Source: an uncultured Clostridia bacterium (GTDB lineage Bacteria; Bacillota; Clostridia; Christensenellales; UBA1242). From it: a DNA stretch of 36,306 nucleotides. Below are positions 4,280 to 16,085 of the stretch, one piece after another; position 1 is the first letter of the stretch, and every line of letters starts with the position of its first letter. Location: contig CAJOLY010000005.1 of the NCBI GenBank assembly GCA_905235485.1, positions 1 to 36,306 on the forward strand. The letters are read 5' to 3'. The translations under genes were made by a program, and so were the position numbers. Below the pieces are notes generated by a model, which worked only from the letters and a program-made list of their open reading frames with translations, was not told the origin of the DNA and did no database searches.

Positions 4280-4612
4280 ATGAGTTGTCGTAATAATTTT
4301 AATAATTTCTTCCCAAGACCAATTTTTATAGGTGGAGGGGTTGTTGGACCAACAGGCCCTGCTGGTCCTAGAGGTCCAATTGGTCCAACAGGTCCAACTG
4401 GAGTTATGGGTCCGACTGGTGTAACAGGTCCAACCGGGGCAACCGGAGCAACTGGTCCAACCGGAGCAACCGGAGCAACAGGAGCGGATGGACTAACACC
4501 AACATTAACCATAGGGACTGTTACAACAGGAACAACTGCAAGTGCATCCATAACTGGAACAGCTCCAAACTTTGTGCTTAATTTGGTTTTGCCAGTTGAT
4601 GAACCAGTCTAA
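4280..4612 (+). CDS. Collagen-like (Gly-X-Y) small surface-type protein
   Basis: A 110-residue protein with three parts: a short N-terminus rich in Asn and Phe (residues 1-22), 17 uninterrupted Gly-X-Y triplets rich in GPT and GAT (residues 23-73), and a 37-residue C-terminal segment ([19 protein letters not shown]...) that resembles the short trimerising ends of Bacillota collagen-like proteins. A triple helix is expected from the repeats. There is no signal peptide or anchor, as in exosporium or spore-surface collagen-like proteins of the BclA type, but spore association is only an inference here. The ribosome binding site AAAGGAGG (4267-4274) is nearly perfect, suggesting high expression. 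It is flanked by hairpins on both sides, so it is probably transcribed alone. It is well outside the integrated element. Confidence 0.85.
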
Positions 4613-5852: not shown

Positions 5853-6761
5853 ATGTGTAAAGGAGTTGCCAAGCCATTTTTGAAATGGGCTGGCGGTAAA
5901 GGTCAATTACTTAATAAGTTTGAAAAAATGTACCCACAAGAACTTATAAGTGGCGAAATTGAAACTTACATAGAACCATTTGTTGGTGGTGGTGCTGTTT
6001 TGTTCGATGTCCTTCAAAAATATAAAGTTAAGAAAGCAGTTATAGTTGACTTAAACAAAGAACTTATAAATTGTTATCGTTGCATTAAAGCGGATGTAAA
6101 TGAACTGATAAAACATCTTAAAACATTGCAAGATGAATTTTTGTCATTAAGCGATGAAAAAAGGAAAGATTATTTCTTAGAGGTAAGAAATAGGTACAAT
6201 GAGATTCATCTTAATGGAAAATATGACTTTGAAAAAGCAGCTGATTTTATATTTTTAAACAAAACATGTTTTAATGGTCTTTATAGGGTTAATAGTAAAG
6301 GCGAATTTAATGTTCCATTTGGGAAATACAAAAACCCATTAATTTGTGATAGCGAAAACCTAACATTAATAAATAAGCTTTTACAAAATGTCGAAATAAG
6401 ATTTGGAGATTATTCAGTTTGCGAAGAATATATAAATGGTAAAACATTTGTATATTTTGACCCACCATATCGCCCACTTATAGAAAACACTTCTTTTGTG
6501 GGATACGACAAATCAGGATTTAATGATGATAATCAAAAAGAACTTGCTGAATTTGTAAAAAAACTTGATAAACAAAATTGTTTAGTAATGCTTAGCAATT
6601 CAGATCCAAAAAACACCAATCCGAATGATAACTTTTTTGATGAACTTTATAAAGGGTTTGAAATTGATAGAATCTTTGCAAAAAGAATGATAAATTGTCA
6701 AGCAGACAAACGTGGAGATATTACAGAAATAGTTGTAAGAAATCACAAAAGGAGAAAATAA
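5853..6761 (+). CDS. Dam-type DNA adenine-N6 methyltransferase (alpha class, DpnM-like)
   Basis: A 302-residue methyltransferase that transfers a methyl group from S-adenosylmethionine to adenine in DNA. Motifs in alpha-class order: motif X KPFLKWAGGKGQLL (residues 7-20), motif I EPFVGGGAVLF (41-51), a target-recognition part with CFNGLYRVNSKGEFNVPFGKY (about 139-159), and motif IV DPPY (203-206). The recognition segment closely resembles that of DpnM, whose target is GATC, so GATC is a reasonable guess for the target but remains inference. In DpnII-type loci such an enzyme is paired with a second methyltransferase, as here. It is the first gene of a closely spaced set of four. The ATG lies behind AAGGAG with good spacing. 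Likely role: protecting host DNA from the nuclease encoded in the same operon. Confidence 0.93.
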   Translation: MCKGVAKPFLKWAGGKGQLLNKFEKMYPQELISGEIETYIEPFVGGGAVLFDVLQKYKVKKAVIVDLNKELINCYRCIKADVNELIKHLKTLQDEFLSLSDEKRKDYFLEVRNRYNEIHLNGKYDFEKAADFIFLNKTCFNGLYRVNSKGEFNVPFGKYKNPLICDSENLTLINKLLQNVEIRFGDYSVCEEYINGKTFVYFDPPYRPLIENTSFVGYDKSGFNDDNQKELAEFVKKLDKQNCLVMLSNSDPKNTNPNDNFFDELYKGFEIDRIFAKRMINCQADKRGDITEIVVRNHKRRK

Positions 6762-6764
6762 ATT

Positions 6765-7304
6765 ATGATAAAAAGCGGAAAAGGTGGCGGAAACACTAGA
6801 ACAGGATTGGTGTTTGAAGGAAAGACTGATTTGTCTACTTTTTTAACACAACAACCAAATTATGAAGTAGTAGATAATGATGTCTTATATAATGGTAAAA
6901 AAGTTGCAGAAGTTTATAAAAAGCATAAATTTTACAATATTTTTTTAAAAAAATTAAATATTGATTGGAAACAACACATTTCAAAACAATTATTACCAGA
7001 TGATAGTATTTTTGTTTTACTGAACAATATTTTATTTATTATAGAATGCAAACATCAAGAAGTTGCTGGTTCTGTTGATGAGAAATTACAAACTTGTGAT
7101 TTTAAGAAAAAACAGTATAAAAAATTAATGGCTCCAGCCAATATAGATGTTGAATATATTTATTTACTCGATGAATGGTTTAGAAATGAAAAATACAAAG
7201 ATGTGTTAGATTATATTCAGTCTGTAGGTTGTGATTACTATTTTGAATATATACCACTAAATAGATTAGGACTACCTGTTCCTCCAGAATTAATTGAGGA
7301 TTAA
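6765..7304 (+). CDS. Compact PD-(D/E)XK nuclease, probable restriction endonuclease
   Basis: A 179-residue protein located between two methyltransferase genes, 3 bases after the first and 3 before the second. It carries a plausible PD-(D/E)XK active site: P78-D79-D80 followed after 13 residues by E94-C95-K96, in hydrophobic strands typical of this fold (SIFVLLNNILFIIECKHQ). The upstream E19 could be the additional acidic residue. The following segment SVDEKLQTCDFKKKQY is striking and probably belongs to a conserved core. The protein does not look like R.DpnII, R.MboI or Sau3AI, which are longer. Context and motif support a sequence-specific restriction enzyme; the target cannot be read from the sequence. 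The ribosome binding site AGGAG (6751-6755) is 9 bases from the ATG. Confidence 0.75.
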   Translation: MIKSGKGGGNTRTGLVFEGKTDLSTFLTQQPNYEVVDNDVLYNGKKVAEVYKKHKFYNIFLKKLNIDWKQHISKQLLPDDSIFVLLNNILFIIECKHQEVAGSVDEKLQTCDFKKKQYKKLMAPANIDVEYIYLLDEWFRNEKYKDVLDYIQSVGCDYYFEYIPLNRLGLPVPPELIED

Positions 7305-7307
7305 TAC

Positions 7308-8027
7308 ATGGAAGAAGATTTTGAACTTGAAACAAATACGGTTTGGAGCTTCCCTAATCGTGGGAAATGGGCAACACACGATGCTAAATATCGTGGGAAT
7401 TTTTCGCCCTATGTAGCAAAAAATATAATTTTAAGGTATTCCCAACCAAACGATTTGGTTTTAGATCAATTTGTTGGTGGCGGAACTACTCTCGTCGAGT
7501 GCAAACTCAATAATAGAAATGCTATTGGAATTGATATAAATCCAAAGGCCGTTGAAAGAACAATTGAAAAACTTAATTTTGATTGTTATTATAAAAATGA
7601 TATATGTGTAAAACTTGGCAATGCGTGTAATTTAAAAAATATTGAAAATGATAGTATTGATTTAATATGTACTCATCCACCTTATGCAGATATTATCAAA
7701 TATAGTGAAGATATTGATGGAGATTTATCCCATTTAAAATACAAAGAGTTTTTAGTAGCAATCGAAAAAGTTGCTGGTGAATGTTATAGAGTTCTTAAAA
7801 AGGACAAATTTTGTGCTATTGTTATGGGAGATACTCGAAAAAAAGGTATGGTTCAACCACTTGGATTCGAAGTTATGCAGAAATTCATAAATGTTGGTTT
7901 TAAACAAAAAGAAATAATTATTAAAGAACAACATAATTGCAAAGCAACAGGTTTTTGGAAAACGAATAGCCAGAAATATAATTTTTTACTTTTGGCACAC
8001 GAATATATTTTTATATTAAAAAAATAA
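7308..8027 (+). CDS. Second DNA amino-methyltransferase (N4-cytosine/N6-adenine type)
   Basis: A 239-residue DNA methyltransferase. The N-terminal part has WSFPNRGKWATHDAKYRGN (13-31) and a motif X-like FSPYVAKNIILRYS (32-45). Motif I is VLDQFVGGGTT (51-61) followed by the acidic AIGIDINP (72-79). Motif IV is THPPY (122-126), and the C-terminus has QHNCKATGFWKTNSQKYNF. The order X-I-IV with a short spacer, and the THPPY variant, separate it from the Dam-type enzyme upstream and from the beta-class DpnA. It belongs to the N4/N6 amino-methyltransferase group, but the modified base cannot be decided. Its neighbours suggest it protects DNA, perhaps the other strand or another half of an asymmetric site. 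GAGGA at 7295-7299 serves as ribosome binding site inside the end of the nuclease gene. Confidence 0.88.
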   Translation: MEEDFELETNTVWSFPNRGKWATHDAKYRGNFSPYVAKNIILRYSQPNDLVLDQFVGGGTTLVECKLNNRNAIGIDINPKAVERTIEKLNFDCYYKNDICVKLGNACNLKNIENDSIDLICTHPPYADIIKYSEDIDGDLSHLKYKEFLVAIEKVAGECYRVLKKDKFCAIVMGDTRKKGMVQPLGFEVMQKFINVGFKQKEIIIKEQHNCKATGFWKTNSQKYNFLLLAHEYIFILKK

Positions 8028-8042
8028 ACAAAGGAGAATTTG

Positions 8043-11000
8043 ATGAGCGAAATATGTAACAACCATTTAAATACTCACTCACTAAATGCAGTTCGTGATA
8101 AAAAAACCGTAGCATGTTTGGAAAATTTTTTAAGTTCGAATGGTAAAATAAACACAAAATTTGAAGCATATAGCACTTGGCCCAATATAGATGGTAGTTT
8201 TGAATTAGTGCAAGAACCAGATCTATCAAGAGCTCCAATAAAAAACTTTTGTGTTCAAATAAAAGGAACTGAAAACGATTATGAAGAAGATGAAAATGAA
8301 ATAAAATATAGATTAATGGATTTAGCTTTTATTCAGTATATTAGAGATGAAGTCACTAGCGATCCTGGTATTTTATTTGTTGTTATTAATACTGGTAAGA
8401 AGGGTAAAGAAAGAGTTTTTTGGAAATATATTTCAACAGAATTTATTAAATCGGTTGATTTTAATAAAAAGAGTTATTTAATTAGTTTTTCGAAAGAAGA
8501 TGAAATTTTTAATACAGATGACAGTATAAATCATTTTGTTGAAAAACTTATAAAGATTTGCAAGCAACATTCGTTTGTTAAAAAATTAGAAATAGTAAAT
8601 CAGAAATCCGTAGAAGATGTAAAAAGAATTATAGAAACATGTAATATTTTTATTACGGAAGCGATCGAGAGATTTGAGTTATTTAATGATACTAGAGATG
8701 CAGTTTCTCGTCGTATGCTCCCACACCTTCAAGATTTGTGCGAAGCAACATTATATTGCAATGCTTTTAATAGGAATTATAAGGAACCCAGCCTAAGACT
8801 CGCTTGGGAAATTTCTCTTATGGATATAGAAACAAAGTTTCTTGATAGATTTTTACAATCGCTTAAATATATAGCAAGACGCATCCCTGAAGACGGGCAA
8901 AATGAAAGATTGATATTAAGTTATTATGATTACTTGTGGCAAATAAGGGAGTATTTAAAGTTTCACAACAATATAAATATTTTACAAAATTTAGAGAAGT
9001 TTCCAATAAATCAAGTTCAAGATGATATAGATTATTATGTTGAGGTCTCAAAAGCAATTGAAAAGCATTGTCACGATTTAAACGGATTCAGTAAACCAAG
9101 ATATTATATTGAGAAAAAGAGGCCATTTTTTATCGGAAAGAAAAGATATTTTGAATTAACATTACAATTAGCTGGAAGATTTGCATCAAAATTTAATAGA
9201 TTAACAGTGTATTCAAAAATAGACGTTTCTACAGATTACTCCATTCAAATAGGATATTCGGAATGTAATGTAAAGTTTTTTGATATAAACTCTAATATTA
9301 AAATTTTAACTACTTGGAAAGTTGCAATTGACCCCTCCGTTATAAATAAATTCTCTTTAATTGTTGGTAATGAAATTAAAATATCATCCAATTATGGAGA
9401 ATATAATGCTTTAATGCAATTTCTTACAAGGACTGGTTGTAATTTATTAGATATTACAGATTTACGAAAACAAAATTTCGAAATCACTTTGAATAATATA
9501 TTTGTAAAATCTAATACCGACTATTTAAAGCAATTATTAATCAGATTAAGAAATATTATAAGTGATGAGTCAACTACTAAAGGTAAAAATACAATTAGGT
9601 ATGCTTTAATACGATTAAGAGAAGAGATGATTTATAATCTATTGCCAGAAAACGAAAATGACAGATACTTTAATAAGGATTTATTTTTAACAAAGAGTTG
9701 TAATTGCTTTGAAAGCGATCCATACTTATATAATATACCAAAACAAAAAACCAATAAAAATATTATATCAAAAGATGTGCTAAGGGCTGTTGGAACAAAA
9801 AATTGCGAATACAAAATACCTTACATTAGGTTAAAAAATTTAACCGAAACAACTGGTCAAGTATATATTGAAAAATCAGAAATTATTGATAATTTTGATA
9901 ATAACGAAATTGATATTTTTAATAACCATTTAAGTAAATTTGATATTACTCAAGGCAAAGAAATAAAACAATATAAAGATTATTTATATATAGATGAATA
10001 CGAAAAAAGTTCAATTTTTATATTAAATTGGTTATTAGAACATTCAAAATCCGGTAATAACGGACAAGAAATAGTTAATAATAAATTTATAAAAGATAAT
10101 CCAGAATTGTTTAAAGACGACGAAACAAAAAAACTTGCAATCAAAAAATTATTTTGTCAATCAAAGATACTCGCCATTTATGGTGCTGCTGGTACTGGGA
10201 AAACGACATTAATGAATTATATTTCAACTTTGATGGATGGGAGAAATAAGCTTTTTATTACCAAAACACATACTGCACTTAACAATTTAAAGAATAGAAT
10301 AAAATCACAGAGCCAAAGTAAATTTATAACTATAGATAGATTTATAAAAGCTAAAAATGAAATTAATTATGATATTGTATTTATTGATGAATGCAGTAAT
10401 ATTGACAATAGATCAATGATGGAAACACTAAAAAAAATAAAAGATACATCCCTATTAGTTATTGCTGGTGATATTTATCAAATAGAATCAATTGATTTTG
10501 GTAACTGGTTTAATTATGCAAGAACTATATTAAACAATGAATCAAAAATAGAATTAACAAACACGTGGAGAACAGATTTAAAAGAACTAAAAAAATTGTG
10601 GGAAGAGGTTCGAAATAAAGGCAATCTCATTACTGATATTTTAGTCATAGACGGACCATTTTCAGAAGCAATATCTAACAACCTATTTAAATCAAATGAT
10701 ATAGATGATGAAATAGTTCTTTGTTTAAATTACGATGGGAGATTTGGTTTAAATAATATTAACAACTATTTTCAAGATGTAAATCCTAATACTCCGTACA
10801 GTTGGCATGATTGGAAATATAAAAAGAATGATCAAATTTTATTCAATGAAACAAAAAGATTCCCCAAATTATATAACAATTTGAAAGGAAAAATATATGA
10901 TATAATAAAAGAAGAAGAATCCATTACATTTATTGTTGATGTGTATACAAATTTAACGGAAATAGATGCCCTTAATAGTGAATTTTCTATAGTAGAATAT

Positions 11001-11351
11001 TTTGATGAGTACACACGTATACAGTTCTCAATATATGAGAATCAGGGTGGGACAACAGACGAGGAACGAGAAGATTCAAAGATGAAGTCTATAGTTCCAT
11101 TTCAGTTGGCATATGCAGTTTCTATACATAAGTCGCAGGGTTTAGAGTATGATTCTGTGAAAATAGTAATTCCAAATAATAATAAAGAACAAATTAGTCA
11201 TGGTGTATTTTACACTGCAATTACAAGAGCAAAAACAAAATTAAAAATTTTTTGGAGTGCAGAAACAATGACAAATGTCGTAAAGAATATTCAAAATGAA
11301 AGCAACCGTGATATAAGTTTAGAGATTCTTAAAAGTAAATTAAATAATTGA
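8043..11351 (+). CDS. DUF4365-like nuclease domain fused to a superfamily 1 helicase
   Basis: A 1102-residue protein, last gene of the tight operon. The N-terminus (about 10-175) resembles DUF4365, a PD-(D/E)XK-type domain: D50-G-S-F-E54 and, about 20 residues on, V71-Q72-I-K74-G-T. Residues 180-690 match nothing I recognise. The C-terminus is a superfamily 1 helicase/ATPase: Walker A GAAGTGKTT (714-722), Walker B FIDEC with D782-E783, a motif III-like VIAGDIYQIE, the Q/R motif NTWRTDL, motif V-like HKSQGLEYD from H1029, and motif VI FYTAITRAKTKL, similar to RecD/DUF2075/UvrD-type enzymes. The ATG at 8043 is chosen behind AAGGAG (8031-8036). It likely couples DNA unwinding or translocation to cleavage. 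Whether it acts with the methyltransferases as one restriction system or is a second defence gene is open. Confidence 0.85.
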   Translation: MSEICNNHLNTHSLNAVRDKKTVACLENFLSSNGKINTKFEAYSTWPNIDGSFELVQEPDLSRAPIKNFCVQIKGTENDYEEDENEIKYRLMDLAFIQYIRDEVTSDPGILFVVINTGKKGKERVFWKYISTEFIKSVDFNKKSYLISFSKEDEIFNTDDSINHFVEKLIKICKQHSFVKKLEIVNQKSVEDVKRIIETCNIFITEAIERFELFNDTRDAVSRRMLPHLQDLCEATLYCNAFNRNYKEPSLRLAWEISLMDIETKFLDRFLQSLKYIARRIPEDGQNERLILSYYDYLWQIREYLKFHNNINILQNLEKFPINQVQDDIDYYVEVSKAIEKHCHDLNGFSKPRYYIEKKRPFFIGKKRYFELTLQLAGRFASKFNRLTVYSKIDVSTDYSIQIGYSECNVKFFDINSNIKILTTWKVAIDPSVINKFSLIVGNEIKISSNYGEYNALMQFLTRTGCNLLDITDLRKQNFEITLNNIFVKSNTDYLKQLLIRLRNIISDESTTKGKNTIRYALIRLREEMIYNLLPENENDRYFNKDLFLTKSCNCFESDPYLYNIPKQKTNKNIISKDVLRAVGTKNCEYKIPYIRLKNLTETTGQVYIEKSEIIDNFDNNEIDIFNNHLSKFDITQGKEIKQYKDYLYIDEYEKSSIFILNWLLEHSKSGNNGQEIVNNKFIKDNPELFKDDETKKLAIKKLFCQSKILAIYGAAGTGKTTLMNYISTLMDGRNKLFITKTHTALNNLKNRIKSQSQSKFITIDRFIKAKNEINYDIVFIDECSNIDNRSMMETLKKIKDTSLLVIAGDIYQIESIDFGNWFNYARTILNNESKIELTNTWRTDLKELKKLWEEVRNKGNLITDILVIDGPFSEAISNNLFKSNDIDDEIVLCLNYDGRFGLNNINNYFQDVNPNTPYSWHDWKYKKNDQILFNETKRFPKLYNNLKGKIYDIIKEEESITFIVDVYTNLTEIDALNSEFSIVEYFDEYTRIQFSIYENQGGTTDEEREDSKMKSIVPFQLAYAVSIHKSQGLEYDSVKIVIPNNNKEQISHGVFYTAITRAKTKLKIFWSAETMTNVVKNIQNESNRDISLEILKSKLNN

Positions 11352-11430: not shown

Positions 11431-11533
11431 TTTGAAAAAAATTTGGTGGCTAAAAAAATATTTTTATGCTGATATTCGTTGGAATATCGGCTTTTTTATT
11501 GCTTGGATATTTTAAAAGTTGAAAAATTGGTGG
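11431..11533. repeat. Two imperfect direct repeats in the leader
   Basis: TTTGAAAAAAATTTGGTGG (11431-11449) and GTTGAAAAATTGGTGG (11518-11533) share TTGAAAAA-TTGGTGG apart from length of the A/T runs. They flank the terminator hairpin. Their function is unknown. Confidence 0.4.
11468..11497 (+). terminator. Terminator after the nuclease-helicase gene
   Basis: GCTGATATTC and GAATATCGGC pair (one G-U) around GTTG and are followed by six T. It lies 116 bases past the helicase stop. Confidence 0.8.
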
Positions 11534-12032: not shown

Positions 12033-12094
12033 TGCTGGACTTGTTCAAAACATTGTGATATGTGTGTGTTTGTAAAAAAATAAAAGGAGCAAAT

Positions 12095-13633
12095 ATGAAA
12101 TTAAAAGCAGTAATTTATGCAAGATACAGCAGTGATAAACAATCAGAGCAATCAATAGAAGGACAACTTCGTGTATGCCATGATTATGCCGAAAGAAATA
12201 ACTACGCCATTGTTGGTGAATACATTGACAGGGCTTTAACAGGAACAACCGACAAACGACCAGAATTTTTGCGCATGATTGAAGATAGTAAAAAGCGAAC
12301 TTTTGATTATGTTATAGTTTATCAATTAGACAGATTTGCAAGAAATAGATATGACAGTGCAATATACAAATCAAAACTTGCAAAGAACAATGTTAGAGTT
12401 ATTTCTGCACAAGAAAACATTAGCGATGATGCTAGTGGTGTTTTGATGGAAAGCGTGCTTGAGGGTATGGCAGAATATTATTCAAAAGAGTTAAGTCAAA
12501 AAACAAAGCGAGGAATGAAAGAATCAATACTTAAAGGTAACTGGACTGGTGGTTATATTCCTTATGGATACAACATCGTGGATCATAAATTTGTAATCAA
12601 TGAAAATGAAGCAATTATTATCAGAAAAATTTTCGACCAATACATAGGTAATATGAAGATGAAAGACATTGCAAAAGAACTGAACGAAATGGGAATAAAA
12701 AACAAACTAAACAAACCATTTGCTTCTAGTTATATTTCACGAATATTACAAAACAAAAAATACATTGGTGAACTAAGTAAAACATATCAAAGTGAAGTTA
12801 AATCTCCAAAAATTATTGACATAGAAACATTTGAAACTGCCAATGAAAAGATTACGCGCAATTTACACAAAGGTGGAAGATTTAATGCAGATGAACTATA
12901 CTATTTGAGCAATAAAACAATTTGTGGATATTGTGGCAAATCCATTATTTCAGAATGTGGTGTGAGTGGCAATGGGAATATGTATAGGTATTACAAATGC
13001 TCAAACAGAAAAAAGAAAGGTCAATGCAAAAAATCTACAATAAAAAAAGAACTTTTTGAAAGCAAGGTGATAGAAAAAACAATCCAAGATATATTTATCC
13101 CTAAAATTATTGATGAAATTGCTGAAAACATTGTTCAAACATTCAATAAACAAATAAAAGAAAACCCTGAACTAAAATCATACACAAGACAATTGAGTGA
13201 TATTGAAAAGAAAATTTCAAATATTATGACTGCTATTGAACAAGGAATAATTACTTCCACAACAAAGGAAAAGCTGATGCAATACGAAAGCGAAAAAACA
13301 GACATAGAAAACAAACTGTTAAGTATTAAGAATAAATCTATACAGCCACTAGAATTTGACAATGTTAAGGCATTTCTGCACGATTTCGAAAGGCAAGATT
13401 ACACAAAGCCAGAGTGCAGATATAGACTCTTAGAAATGTTTATAAACAAAATTTACCTTTATGATGATTATGCCATAATTGTTTACAATGGAATAAAAAA
13501 TTCGGGCAATTTACTAAATTTAGGCAACAAAAAAACCGAACTGAACAATTTGTTCGAATTCGGTTCATCTGGCTCCCCGGAGAGGGCTCGAACCTCCAAC
13601 CTATCGGTTAACAGCCGAGTGCTCCACCATTGA
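12095..13633 (+). CDS. Large serine recombinase (site-specific integrase)
   Basis: A 512-residue large serine recombinase that should integrate and excise the element. The N-terminal resolvase domain begins KAVIYARYSSDKQS, with S12 the expected nucleophile, and includes the conserved YQLDRFARNRYD. The recombinase domain follows (GYIPYGY..., about 150-260), then a zinc ribbon with CGYCGK and YKCSNRKKKGQC (about 275-310), and a heptad-rich segment (about 345-420), in the usual order. The ATG at 12095 lies behind AGGAG (12085-12089); the open frame upstream to 12062 has no ribosome binding site. Odd feature: from residue 492 onward the codons are the antisense of tRNA-Asn, so the last about 20 residues are supplied by the chromosome. 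In an excised circle the frame would instead continue from the left end for 23 residues to a stop at 5787-5789. Confidence 0.92.
   Translation: MKLKAVIYARYSSDKQSEQSIEGQLRVCHDYAERNNYAIVGEYIDRALTGTTDKRPEFLRMIEDSKKRTFDYVIVYQLDRFARNRYDSAIYKSKLAKNNVRVISAQENISDDASGVLMESVLEGMAEYYSKELSQKTKRGMKESILKGNWTGGYIPYGYNIVDHKFVINENEAIIIRKIFDQYIGNMKMKDIAKELNEMGIKNKLNKPFASSYISRILQNKKYIGELSKTYQSEVKSPKIIDIETFETANEKITRNLHKGGRFNADELYYLSNKTICGYCGKSIISECGVSGNGNMYRYYKCSNRKKKGQCKKSTIKKELFESKVIEKTIQDIFIPKIIDEIAENIVQTFNKQIKENPELKSYTRQLSDIEKKISNIMTAIEQGIITSTTKEKLMQYESEKTDIENKLLSIKNKSIQPLEFDNVKAFLHDFERQDYTKPECRYRLLEMFINKIYLYDDYAIIVYNGIKNSGNLLNLGNKKTELNNLFEFGSSGSPERARTSNLSVNSRVLHH
13529..13566 (-). terminator. Element-encoded terminator of tRNA-Asn, inside the recombinase gene
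   Basis: On the - strand AACCGAA, GAACA, a loop of three, TGTTC and TTCGGTT form a two-part stem with an internal loop, followed by seven T. It starts a few bases past the CCA end. The same bases encode recombinase residues near 478-491 on the + strand. Confidence 0.7.
13570..13576. repeat. Right attachment core (attR), TGGCTCC, the tRNA-Asn 3' end
   Basis: The last seven bases of tRNA-Asn (GGAGCCA on the - strand) recur at 5711-5717. This marks the right junction of the element. Confidence 0.65.
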
Positions 13634-13644
13634 GCTACCGAGGA
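13570..13644 (-). tRNA. tRNA-Asn (anticodon GTT)
   Basis: The 75-base - strand sequence folds as a standard tRNA. The acceptor stem is TCCTCGG with CCGGGGA (one G-U pair), then discriminator G and an encoded CCA. The D stem is GCTC/GAGC. The anticodon loop is CTGTTAA with anticodon GTT, read as asparagine. The T arm is GGAGG, TTCGAGC, CCTCT. The first anticodon-stem pair (C with T) is mismatched. The gene is the integration target of the element: its 3' seven bases form the right attachment core and are duplicated at the left end. Confidence 0.95.
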
Positions 13645-13895: not shown

Positions 13896-16085
13896 ATGAG
13901 AAAATCAAAGAAAGGCTTTACTATTGTTGAATTGGTAATCGTAATTGCTGTAATTGCTATTTTGGCAGCAGTTTTAGTACCAACATTTACGAATTTAGTA
14001 ACAAAAGCAAATATTTCAGCAGATGCTTCTACAGTTAAAACTTTAAATACATATCTAGCTGTAGAAGAAGGAGAAACTGGCAAAAAGCCACAAACAATGA
14101 GTGAAGTTGTTGATATATTAAACAATCATGGATATAATCTTGAAAGACTTCACTTGTCAAATAAATCTAGCACATTGCTTTGGAATCAAGAAACAAATCG
14201 ATTCATAATAAAAAATGGCAATGAAGTGATTTATGCTGCAAATGATGAAAATGCAGATTACAAACTTTGGGAAATTGTTAAAACAATCCCAGCAGAACAA
14301 AAATATAATTTGTATTTGAATGATAGCTTTGAAGGAACAACTGCAAATGTTTCAGTTGGTTTAGATACAGGTAAAAATGACCAAATTAAAGTTATAACAT
14401 ACACTCACACCAGTGGTGCAGCAAGAAACAATGTAATAATTCGCACATGTGGATTGGATACAGAAGTTTCTATCAATGCAAAAAATGACTTAATAAAACA
14501 TTATGGAAAGGCTGGTTCAGTAAGCATTGTTTCAGTTGGCAGCGTTCAAGAAAATGCCGTGGTTCCATTTGTCGAAATTGCTGGTGGAAATTTGGTTGTT
14601 GAAAGTTCAGCAAAGGTTACAGCAATTCATTTCAATGCAACAGATGGCAAATTTGAAAATGAAGACCAAAAACAAATATTTGTTGATTTGAGTAAAGTTC
14701 AAGTTGCAAATGCACCATCATTTTCAAGAGATGGTGTTGAAATTGAAAACGAAGTTCTTGTTGCAAAAGTTGATGATCTTTACATTTGGCTCACAGGCAA
14801 TGGAACAATAGAAAATGCTGAAGTCAAGACTTCAACATCACCTGATGGAATAAAAACAAGTGCAGAAGCAACAGTTTCAGGAAATTCTATTGCAGAGCAA
14901 GTTGCAAATACTGTAGTTGAAAACATAGATGGAACAACTACTTATGAACCAAAAGTAACAAAAGAAGAAGCACAAGAAATTATTGAAGATGCAAAAACAG
15001 AAGAAGTTTTGGCAGAAGCAGAAAATCAAGATAAAAACTTTGTTGCAAGAATTGGTGTAAGAGGCTATGAAAGTCTTGAAAAAGCAGTTGAAAATGCTGT
15101 TAATAACGATACAATATATTTACTTAAAGATAGCACTTTGCAATCACGCTTAACAATAAGTGGTAAAAACTTGACAATTGATGGTGGAGTAAACAAGTAT
15201 TCAATAACTGTTTTAAATGAAAATATTGAGAACGGAAGAGCAATTAACATTTTTGACGGTAATATCGCTGTTAAGTTTAAAAACCTTAAACTTGTTGGAC
15301 CAACAAGTGGTAGTTATACAAGAGGTTTGAATATTGCTGATGAAAATGTAAAATTAGACATAGAAAATTGTGAAATTAGTTCAAATACTTATGCAATCAA
15401 TTTCTGTTCTGGAACAACAATTGATGTAAATATTATTGACTCAAAAATTTCAGGTTGGGCAGCTCTTAACATTTGGTCTGATGGAATTTCAGTTGTTGTA
15501 AAAAATTCAACTTTAGAAGGAATAAATGACAAATCATACGACAAATGGAATACATTTAGCACAATTTGTTTTGAAGGTGATTCAACTCACAAAACAACTT
15601 TGCATTCAGAGAATATGAATTTGTATTGTGAAAACTCAACTATCATTGCAAAATCTACAACTGGCAACAGACAAGATATTATTGGATTTAACTCAGATTG
15701 CTTGAACAATAAAGCATCATTTGTAAATTGCAATTTTGTTTTGGATAATGCTTCATACAATCATATGTATTACAACAATGGAACAAATAATTCATTGAAA
15801 GTTGATGGATTTGATTATTTAAGAGACTACACACAAGATGTTGACACAACAGATTTGGTTATTTCTCAAGAAGGAAATTCAGCAACAGGTAGCATAAAGT
15901 TTATATTTGGTGACCAGGTTTTAACTTTCAACCTTGAAGATGCAGAAGTTTCACAATGGTCAAACACTGCAGGAAGTGGTACTGACTATGTGTTCAGTGA
16001 TGTAACTTTGGCTGGAAAAACATATTCATTGGATTTAGATATTAGCACAGCATATCCAGATGGATTTCATTTGTACGTATTTTAA
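13896..16085 (+). CDS. Prepilin-like surface protein with large probable beta-helix ectodomain
   Basis: A 729-residue protein starting with a type IV prepilin signature: basic leader MRKSKKG, then FTIVELVIVIAVIAILAAVLVPTF. Cleavage by prepilin peptidase is expected after G7, leaving F8 as the methylated N-terminus and E12 as the conserved Glu5. Ordinary pilins are near 150 residues; here about 690 residues follow the helix. The ectodomain alternates short strands with Asn- and Gly-rich turns (for example KNLTIDGG, VKNSTLEG, VKFKNLKLVG, VNIIDSKISG around residues 425-550), a pattern of right-handed parallel beta-helices seen in adhesins. A segment rich in Glu, Ala and Lys (about 345-380) may be a linker. 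The next gene begins 9 bases after the stop. No pilus assembly genes lie in the window, so its machinery must be elsewhere. Confidence 0.82.
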   Translation: MRKSKKGFTIVELVIVIAVIAILAAVLVPTFTNLVTKANISADASTVKTLNTYLAVEEGETGKKPQTMSEVVDILNNHGYNLERLHLSNKSSTLLWNQETNRFIIKNGNEVIYAANDENADYKLWEIVKTIPAEQKYNLYLNDSFEGTTANVSVGLDTGKNDQIKVITYTHTSGAARNNVIIRTCGLDTEVSINAKNDLIKHYGKAGSVSIVSVGSVQENAVVPFVEIAGGNLVVESSAKVTAIHFNATDGKFENEDQKQIFVDLSKVQVANAPSFSRDGVEIENEVLVAKVDDLYIWLTGNGTIENAEVKTSTSPDGIKTSAEATVSGNSIAEQVANTVVENIDGTTTYEPKVTKEEAQEIIEDAKTEEVLAEAENQDKNFVARIGVRGYESLEKAVENAVNNDTIYLLKDSTLQSRLTISGKNLTIDGGVNKYSITVLNENIENGRAINIFDGNIAVKFKNLKLVGPTSGSYTRGLNIADENVKLDIENCEISSNTYAINFCSGTTIDVNIIDSKISGWAALNIWSDGISVVVKNSTLEGINDKSYDKWNTFSTICFEGDSTHKTTLHSENMNLYCENSTIIAKSTTGNRQDIIGFNSDCLNNKASFVNCNFVLDNASYNHMYYNNGTNNSLKVDGFDYLRDYTQDVDTTDLVISQEGNSATGSIKFIFGDQVLTFNLEDAEVSQWSNTAGSGTDYVFSDVTLAGKTYSLDLDISTAYPDGFHLYVF

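Follow-up and report, generated by a model that had tools for sequence, protein, structure and literature searches.

A single reading frame in an uncultured Clostridia bacterium joins a nuclease domain to a superfamily 1 (SF1) helicase motor and lies directly downstream of DNA methyltransferase genes, and the question it raises is whether the protein works with these methyltransferases or as a system of its own. The window, i.e. the whole stretch of DNA analyzed, is 36,306 nucleotides long. From its letters alone, the initial annotation had described the nuclease, the motor and about 500 unassigned residues between them, and had suggested translocation-coupled cleavage of unmodified or damaged DNA.

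Reading frame and domain layout

The frame was found to be intact and open from 8040 to 11351. Of its two possible starts, 8043 is likelier than 8040, because AAAGGAG lies 6 nt ahead of the ATG; residues are nevertheless numbered throughout from M1 = TTG 8040. The parts of the gene are as follows.

8030..8036, + strand: ribosome-binding site AAAGGAG, 6 nt 5' of ATG 8043
8043..11351, + strand: fusion of a DREN-like nuclease and a PDC-S53 core helicase; a start at ATG 8043 gives 1102 aa, one at TTG 8040 gives 1103 aa
8040..8597, + strand: DREN/DUF4365-like PD-(D/E)XK nuclease, residues 1-186, from Pfam, conservation and predicted fold
8601..9068, + strand: helix bundle, residues 188-343 (188-312 HEPN/HepT-like), by structure match only
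9075..9329, + strand: OB-fold-like beta domain, residues 346-430, with fold matches to SSB and the MCM N-terminal domain
9333..9794, + strand: conserved helical region, residues 432-585, with no fold match
9795..10007, + strand: winged-helix-like segment, residues 586-656, weak, best Z 4.9
10113..11309, + strand: SF1B (RecD2/Dda-type) helicase motor, residues 692-1090, all motifs intact

The nuclease motifs are DGSFE (51-55) and QIKG (73-76), while those of the helicase are YGAAGTGKT (714-722), DECS (783-786), GDIYQ (810-814), HKSQGLEY (1030-1037) and YTAITRA (1058-1064). Every motif named earlier (D50-GSFE, Q72-I-K74, Walker A, D782-E783 and HKSQG) is thus present in frame, mostly at positions one higher, since the earlier numbering began at 8043. 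Both D51, E55, Q73 and K75 and the helicase motifs are conserved across divergent relatives, and the motif set is therefore not due to chance. Nuclease and SF1 helicase do occur in one chain, as had been observed, and the assignment to a DUF4365/DREN-type PD-(D/E)XK domain plus an SF1 motor was borne out by Pfam, predicted structure and fold search.

The N-terminal nuclease domain

In Pfam, the protein matched DUF4365 at 25.8 bits against a cut-off of 24.3. The proposed profile search thus put the window protein just over the cut-off but hardly its relatives, one of which (L025) reached 21.9 bits while the other nuclease-bearing ones had no match. As the score is barely over the cut-off and most relatives miss it, the predicted fold carries the weight of the assignment. 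An AlphaFold2 model of residues 1-700, built from 77 sequences, had a mean pLDDT of 86, with values below 50 at residues 1-15 and 44-51, which places D51 at the edge of a poorly modeled loop. When searched with VIA-align, residues 14-186 of this model superposed on six DREN entries of SPARDA systems with Z of 11.2-13.2, the best having an rmsd of 2.9 over 147 aligned residues at 19% identity; the next PD-(D/E)XK proteins (Hjc, the PBP-related factor A fold and DpnI) had Z of about 7-8. Foldseek also ranked DREN first, but with an E-value of only 0.006. A sequence profile linking the N-terminus to SPARDA was not found, nor did a PDB sequence search with the N-terminus return anything. The fold search accordingly put the domain inside the PD-(D/E)XK group, nearest to SPARDA DREN.

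A PD-(D/E)XK fold with a D...QxK site is what the predicted structure and conservation give for this domain: 8/8 full-length nuclease-bearing relatives keep D51, E55, Q73 and K75 unchanged, although identity across the domain is only about 45-51%. By motif, D51, Q73 and K75 correspond to D41, Q60 and K62 of DREN. In NbaSPARDA, D41 and Q60 bind magnesium, collateral activity is abolished by D41A and Q60A and impaired by K62A, and the DREN domain is inactive by itself until switched on by tetramerization (PMC12205087). The DUF4365 domain of TmuSPARDA similarly uses Q62 and K64 (PMC10810196), and earlier work placed DUF4365 among the RecB-like nucleases, in the Mrr subfamily (PMC6299218). While the nuclease fold and the D...QxK site are common to SPARDA DREN-APAZ and the present protein, SPARDA has a short Argonaute as neighbor, whereas here a Pfam scan of the neighboring genes found no Argonaute and the DREN-like nuclease is instead fused to a helicase core. 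Nor was APAZ among the matches listed for the middle region, which were of HEPN-like and OB type.

The helicase motor and the middle region

The complete SF1 motor described earlier was recovered with all its motifs; in 92 homologues, Walker A, Walker B and the Q and R motifs hardly vary. The nearest NCBIfam model was RecD2 (TIGR01448), which matched residues 597-1090 at 117.2 bits against a cut-off of 500. RecD2 orthology was rejected on this score, the true RecD2 of the genome being encoded elsewhere, on contig C6, and scoring 838; what is shared with RecD2 is the SF1B motor similarity of residues 597-1090.

The formerly unassigned stretch is covered by the PADLOC model PDC-S53. All top fold matches of residues 188-312 (VIA-align) belong to the HEPN superfamily, i.e. 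HepT and relatives, with Z up to 9.9, which is too low to be relied on in a helical bundle, as such bundles can reach similar values by common arrangement alone. Profile comparison with 36 HepT proteins (hhalign) gave no match (probability 0.2). The bundle contains E289-R290-x4-Y295, in which R290 and Y295 are invariant (92/92) and no histidine is found; the Rx4-6H motif of HEPN RNases thus reads R290-x4-Y295 in every homologue, the site having been placed by motif and not by superposition. HEPN RNase activity is doubtful because an invariant tyrosine replaces the histidine of this motif.

Residues 346-430 matched the OB folds of SSB and MCM with Z of about 7 (VIA-align). Residues 425-706, modeled separately (pLDDT 92), matched only winged helices over 586-656 and nothing over 432-585. 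Neither a PDB sequence search with the middle nor a viral structure library gave a significant match. A known helicase insertion here would, by the initial annotation, have refuted its reading, but structure prediction and fold search instead resolved HEPN-like, OB, helical and winged-helix-like parts; the middle is therefore conserved family core, neither confined to the nuclease-bearing clade nor a helicase insertion. It is probably DNA-handling, and a sensing role, close to the recognition or regulatory function suggested before, is plausible.

The PDC-S53 family and its armed clade

Residues 194-1100 matched PDC-S53 (PDLC05035) with an E-value of 5.8e-265 and 879.7 bits, over model positions 4-893 out of 900, and relatives scored 890-1335 bits. 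PDC genes are PADLOC candidates, tallied apart from known systems (PMC11514479); a literature search returned neither a mention of PDC-S53 nor experiments on any PDC-S53 protein. A scan of genome contigs with the single sequence as query found zero relatives, while an alignment-based scan confirmed at least 562 out of at least 579 matched stretches. Within the order of the window, the core was found in 11 out of 347 genomes, and further members are encoded by plasmids and phages.

Nearly all core members are about 900 aa long and start where the nuclease would end. The protein thus shares the whole core with PDC-S53, but the model and most members lack the N-terminal nuclease of about 185 residues that "arms" this clade. 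The number of residues preceding position 200 was bimodal among 92 near-complete homologues, at about 200 in eight and about 0-37 in most others; the few with 55-101 residues may reflect early starts in mechanical ORF calls. The eight armed relatives form a single group in the tree (SH-aLRT 100), whose exact place in the family is unsure because the branch leading to it is long. Including a ninth (G558, 48% identity, from the window's own order), the members found are 46-51% identical, and they are mostly from Bacillota, with one from Gastranaerophilales. The architecture is thus a well-bounded, armed variant of a catalogued defense candidate and not an orphan design.

A split, two-gene version of the nuclease beside core members was considered and rejected, as the genes upstream of five core members had no DUF4365 match, and standalone relatives of the nuclease were found neither in plasmids nor in phages. 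Two phages of different hosts (L012:7077-10688 and L013:7086-10733) have in common a 278-aa gene, of no recognized family, directly upstream of the core gene, and the two genes may form a unit. Separately, one phage core homologue (L012:7932-10685) has a weak KwaB-like Pfam match at residues 65-190 (E-value 8e-4), a match absent among the 77 homologues scanned with Pfam.

The adjacent methyltransferase cassette

Upstream of the helicase gene lies a set of restriction-modification (R-M) genes on the same strand, and a terminator-like site lies downstream of it.

5853..6761, + strand: Dam-type D12-class adenine methyltransferase of a separate R-M cassette
6765..7304, + strand: 179-aa PD-(D/E)XK protein, probably the restriction enzyme belonging to the cassette
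7308..8027, + strand: N6/N4 (beta-class) DNA methyltransferase of the cassette
11468..11491, + strand: terminator-like stem-loop 3' of the helicase gene, ending the gene run

The genes are separated by 3, 3 and 12-15 bases, the last gap being that to the helicase gene. By its two kinds of methyltransferase, the cassette presumably resembles MboI/DpnII-type systems. Among 38 related methyltransferase loci with 1.5 kb flanks, the Dam-type gene occurred in 32, the same restriction enzyme in six and any part of the helicase in none. Of the 347 genomes of the order, 43 contain close relatives of the beta-class gene, including one that is 86% identical, and in three genomes (G532, G558 and G456) the methyltransferase and a PDC-S53 gene are both present, on different contigs. 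This cassette was absent from the flanks of the other armed relatives wherever these could be read. Only one further locus (L081:4157-9499) repeats the arrangement, with, in the same order, a Dam-type methyltransferase, a different restriction enzyme (DUF6996/DUF6997), the same methyltransferase (56%) and a nuclease-less PDC-S53 core; it is a distant and independent parallel. From the lack of linkage in the 38 loci, the separate contigs and this single repeat, the cassette is self-contained and its adjacency at most occasional.

Proposed mechanism and alternatives

Given the computed domain layout, the intact motor and nuclease motifs, the single armed clade and the scattered occurrence near restriction genes and recombinases, we propose a single-chain anti-phage enzyme in which a PDC-S53 sensor and motor core controls an N-terminal DREN-type effector, independently of the adjacent methyltransferases; we put the probability of this reading at about one half. 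Single-stranded or fork DNA would be gripped by the OB and winged-helix parts during translocation by the SF1B motor. Where the enzyme meets broken DNA or intermediates of phage replication, the DREN domain would be freed or assembled, through movement driven by ATP or through multimerization, and would then cut DNA without sequence preference and destroy the phage genome, and probably the cell too. Such an enzyme would work like Hachiman, with a helicase sensor and a nuclease effector, but with a SPARDA-type nuclease and as one polypeptide. In Hachiman, the HamA nuclease is kept in check by the HamB helicase and then released (PMC12278908), and Nhi, Hna and AbpAB show that such systems can be triggered by phage SSB or by DNA damage (PMC10732053, PMC12904381). 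Hachiman HamAB and AbpAB pair a nuclease effector with a helicase sensor, as proposed here, and the AbpA mutants Q58A and K60A point to a QxK-type site like that of the present nuclease; both are, however, two-gene systems of other helicase and nuclease families. The comparison is one of working principle, as no HamA/HamB or AbpAB model was among the PADLOC matches (Hachiman: E-values up to 1). Nhi and Hna do combine nuclease and helicase in a single chain acting in phage defense, and a model of neither was among the matches to PADLOC 2.0.0, which may not include them.

The main rival, which we consider unlikely, is a processive, translocation-coupled helicase-nuclease of the RecBCD, AddAB or Dna2 kind, which would digest DNA as it unwinds it, ends left by the neighboring restriction enzyme included, in defense or repair without suicide. 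It would account for a nuclease and a motor in one chain, for an OB fold as in DNA-processing enzymes (with a weak Foldseek match to Dna2) and for R-M genes within the same gene run. What tells against it is that the genome already has a true RecD2, that most family members are without the nuclease, and that the nearest nuclease fold is that of a non-specific, assembly-activated collateral effector, for which reason collateral cleavage is favored over the translocation-coupled restriction suggested initially. The frequent absence of the nuclease also bears on the preferred single-chain effector, since the core must act otherwise in those members and need not be a nuclease controller.

Cleavage guided by modification, with the protein as the cutting and translocating arm of the adjacent methyltransferases, is highly improbable. 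The 12-15 bp gap on the same strand, the second such cassette beside a core helicase in L081 and the type I R-M genes adjoining several relatives speak for it, yet the cassette has a PD-(D/E)XK enzyme of its own, the armed relatives do without it, the genes lie on different contigs in three genomes of the order, no target-recognition domain was found, and with a helicase beside 0/38 related cassettes the earlier step from adjacency to cleavage of unmodified DNA is not supported. A further improbable reading makes the core the toxin, with the HEPN-like domain working as an RNase and the DREN domain as accessory: the one-superfamily fold matches and the invariant E289-R290-x4-Y295 would suit such a role, but the tyrosine in place of the catalytic histidine, the missing profile link to HepT and the ease with which helical bundles reach such Z argue against it.

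Starting from the single-chain effector reading, we would tentatively see an undescribed branch of defense, in which DREN was fused once to a widespread sensor-helicase core, built of HEPN-like, OB, new helical, winged-helix and SF1B motor parts, to give one-protein abortive infection by collateral DNA destruction on sensing DNA intermediates. If true, the fusion would reveal a sensor role in the unarmed core members as well. PDC-S53 is a widespread candidate family, and the armed clade is the first concrete handle on what its core does; it may also be a one-polypeptide counterpart of Hachiman and SPARDA, and would extend DREN-type nucleases beyond Argonaute systems.

Mobile context and wider neighborhoods

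Downstream of the gene run, one feature points to mobility.

12062..13633, + strand: CcrB-like large serine recombinase; its last codons overlap a tRNA-Asn gene of the opposite strand (12062-13644 as a putative island boundary)

The recombinase reading into tRNA-Asn suggests the end of a mobile island; no direct repeat of at least 14 bp was found to link the tRNA-Asn region with another part of the window. Type I R-M genes adjoin three armed relatives, with HsdR and a TIR/SEFIR gene in L021, HsdR in L025 and HsdS genes in L018, while an HD-domain protein (L016) and a DUF1016 gene (L015) are neighbors of two others. Across the whole family, 134 neighbors included HsdR, McrBC, AbiH, AlwI and recombinases, a tally that serves as description and not as an enrichment statistic. 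Two other genes of the window were also observed: a short collagen-like protein with GPTG repeats near the putative island (4280-4612), and a 729-aa protein (13896-16085) whose N-terminus bears a methylation motif like that of type IV pilins, and which has partial paralogues on another contig.
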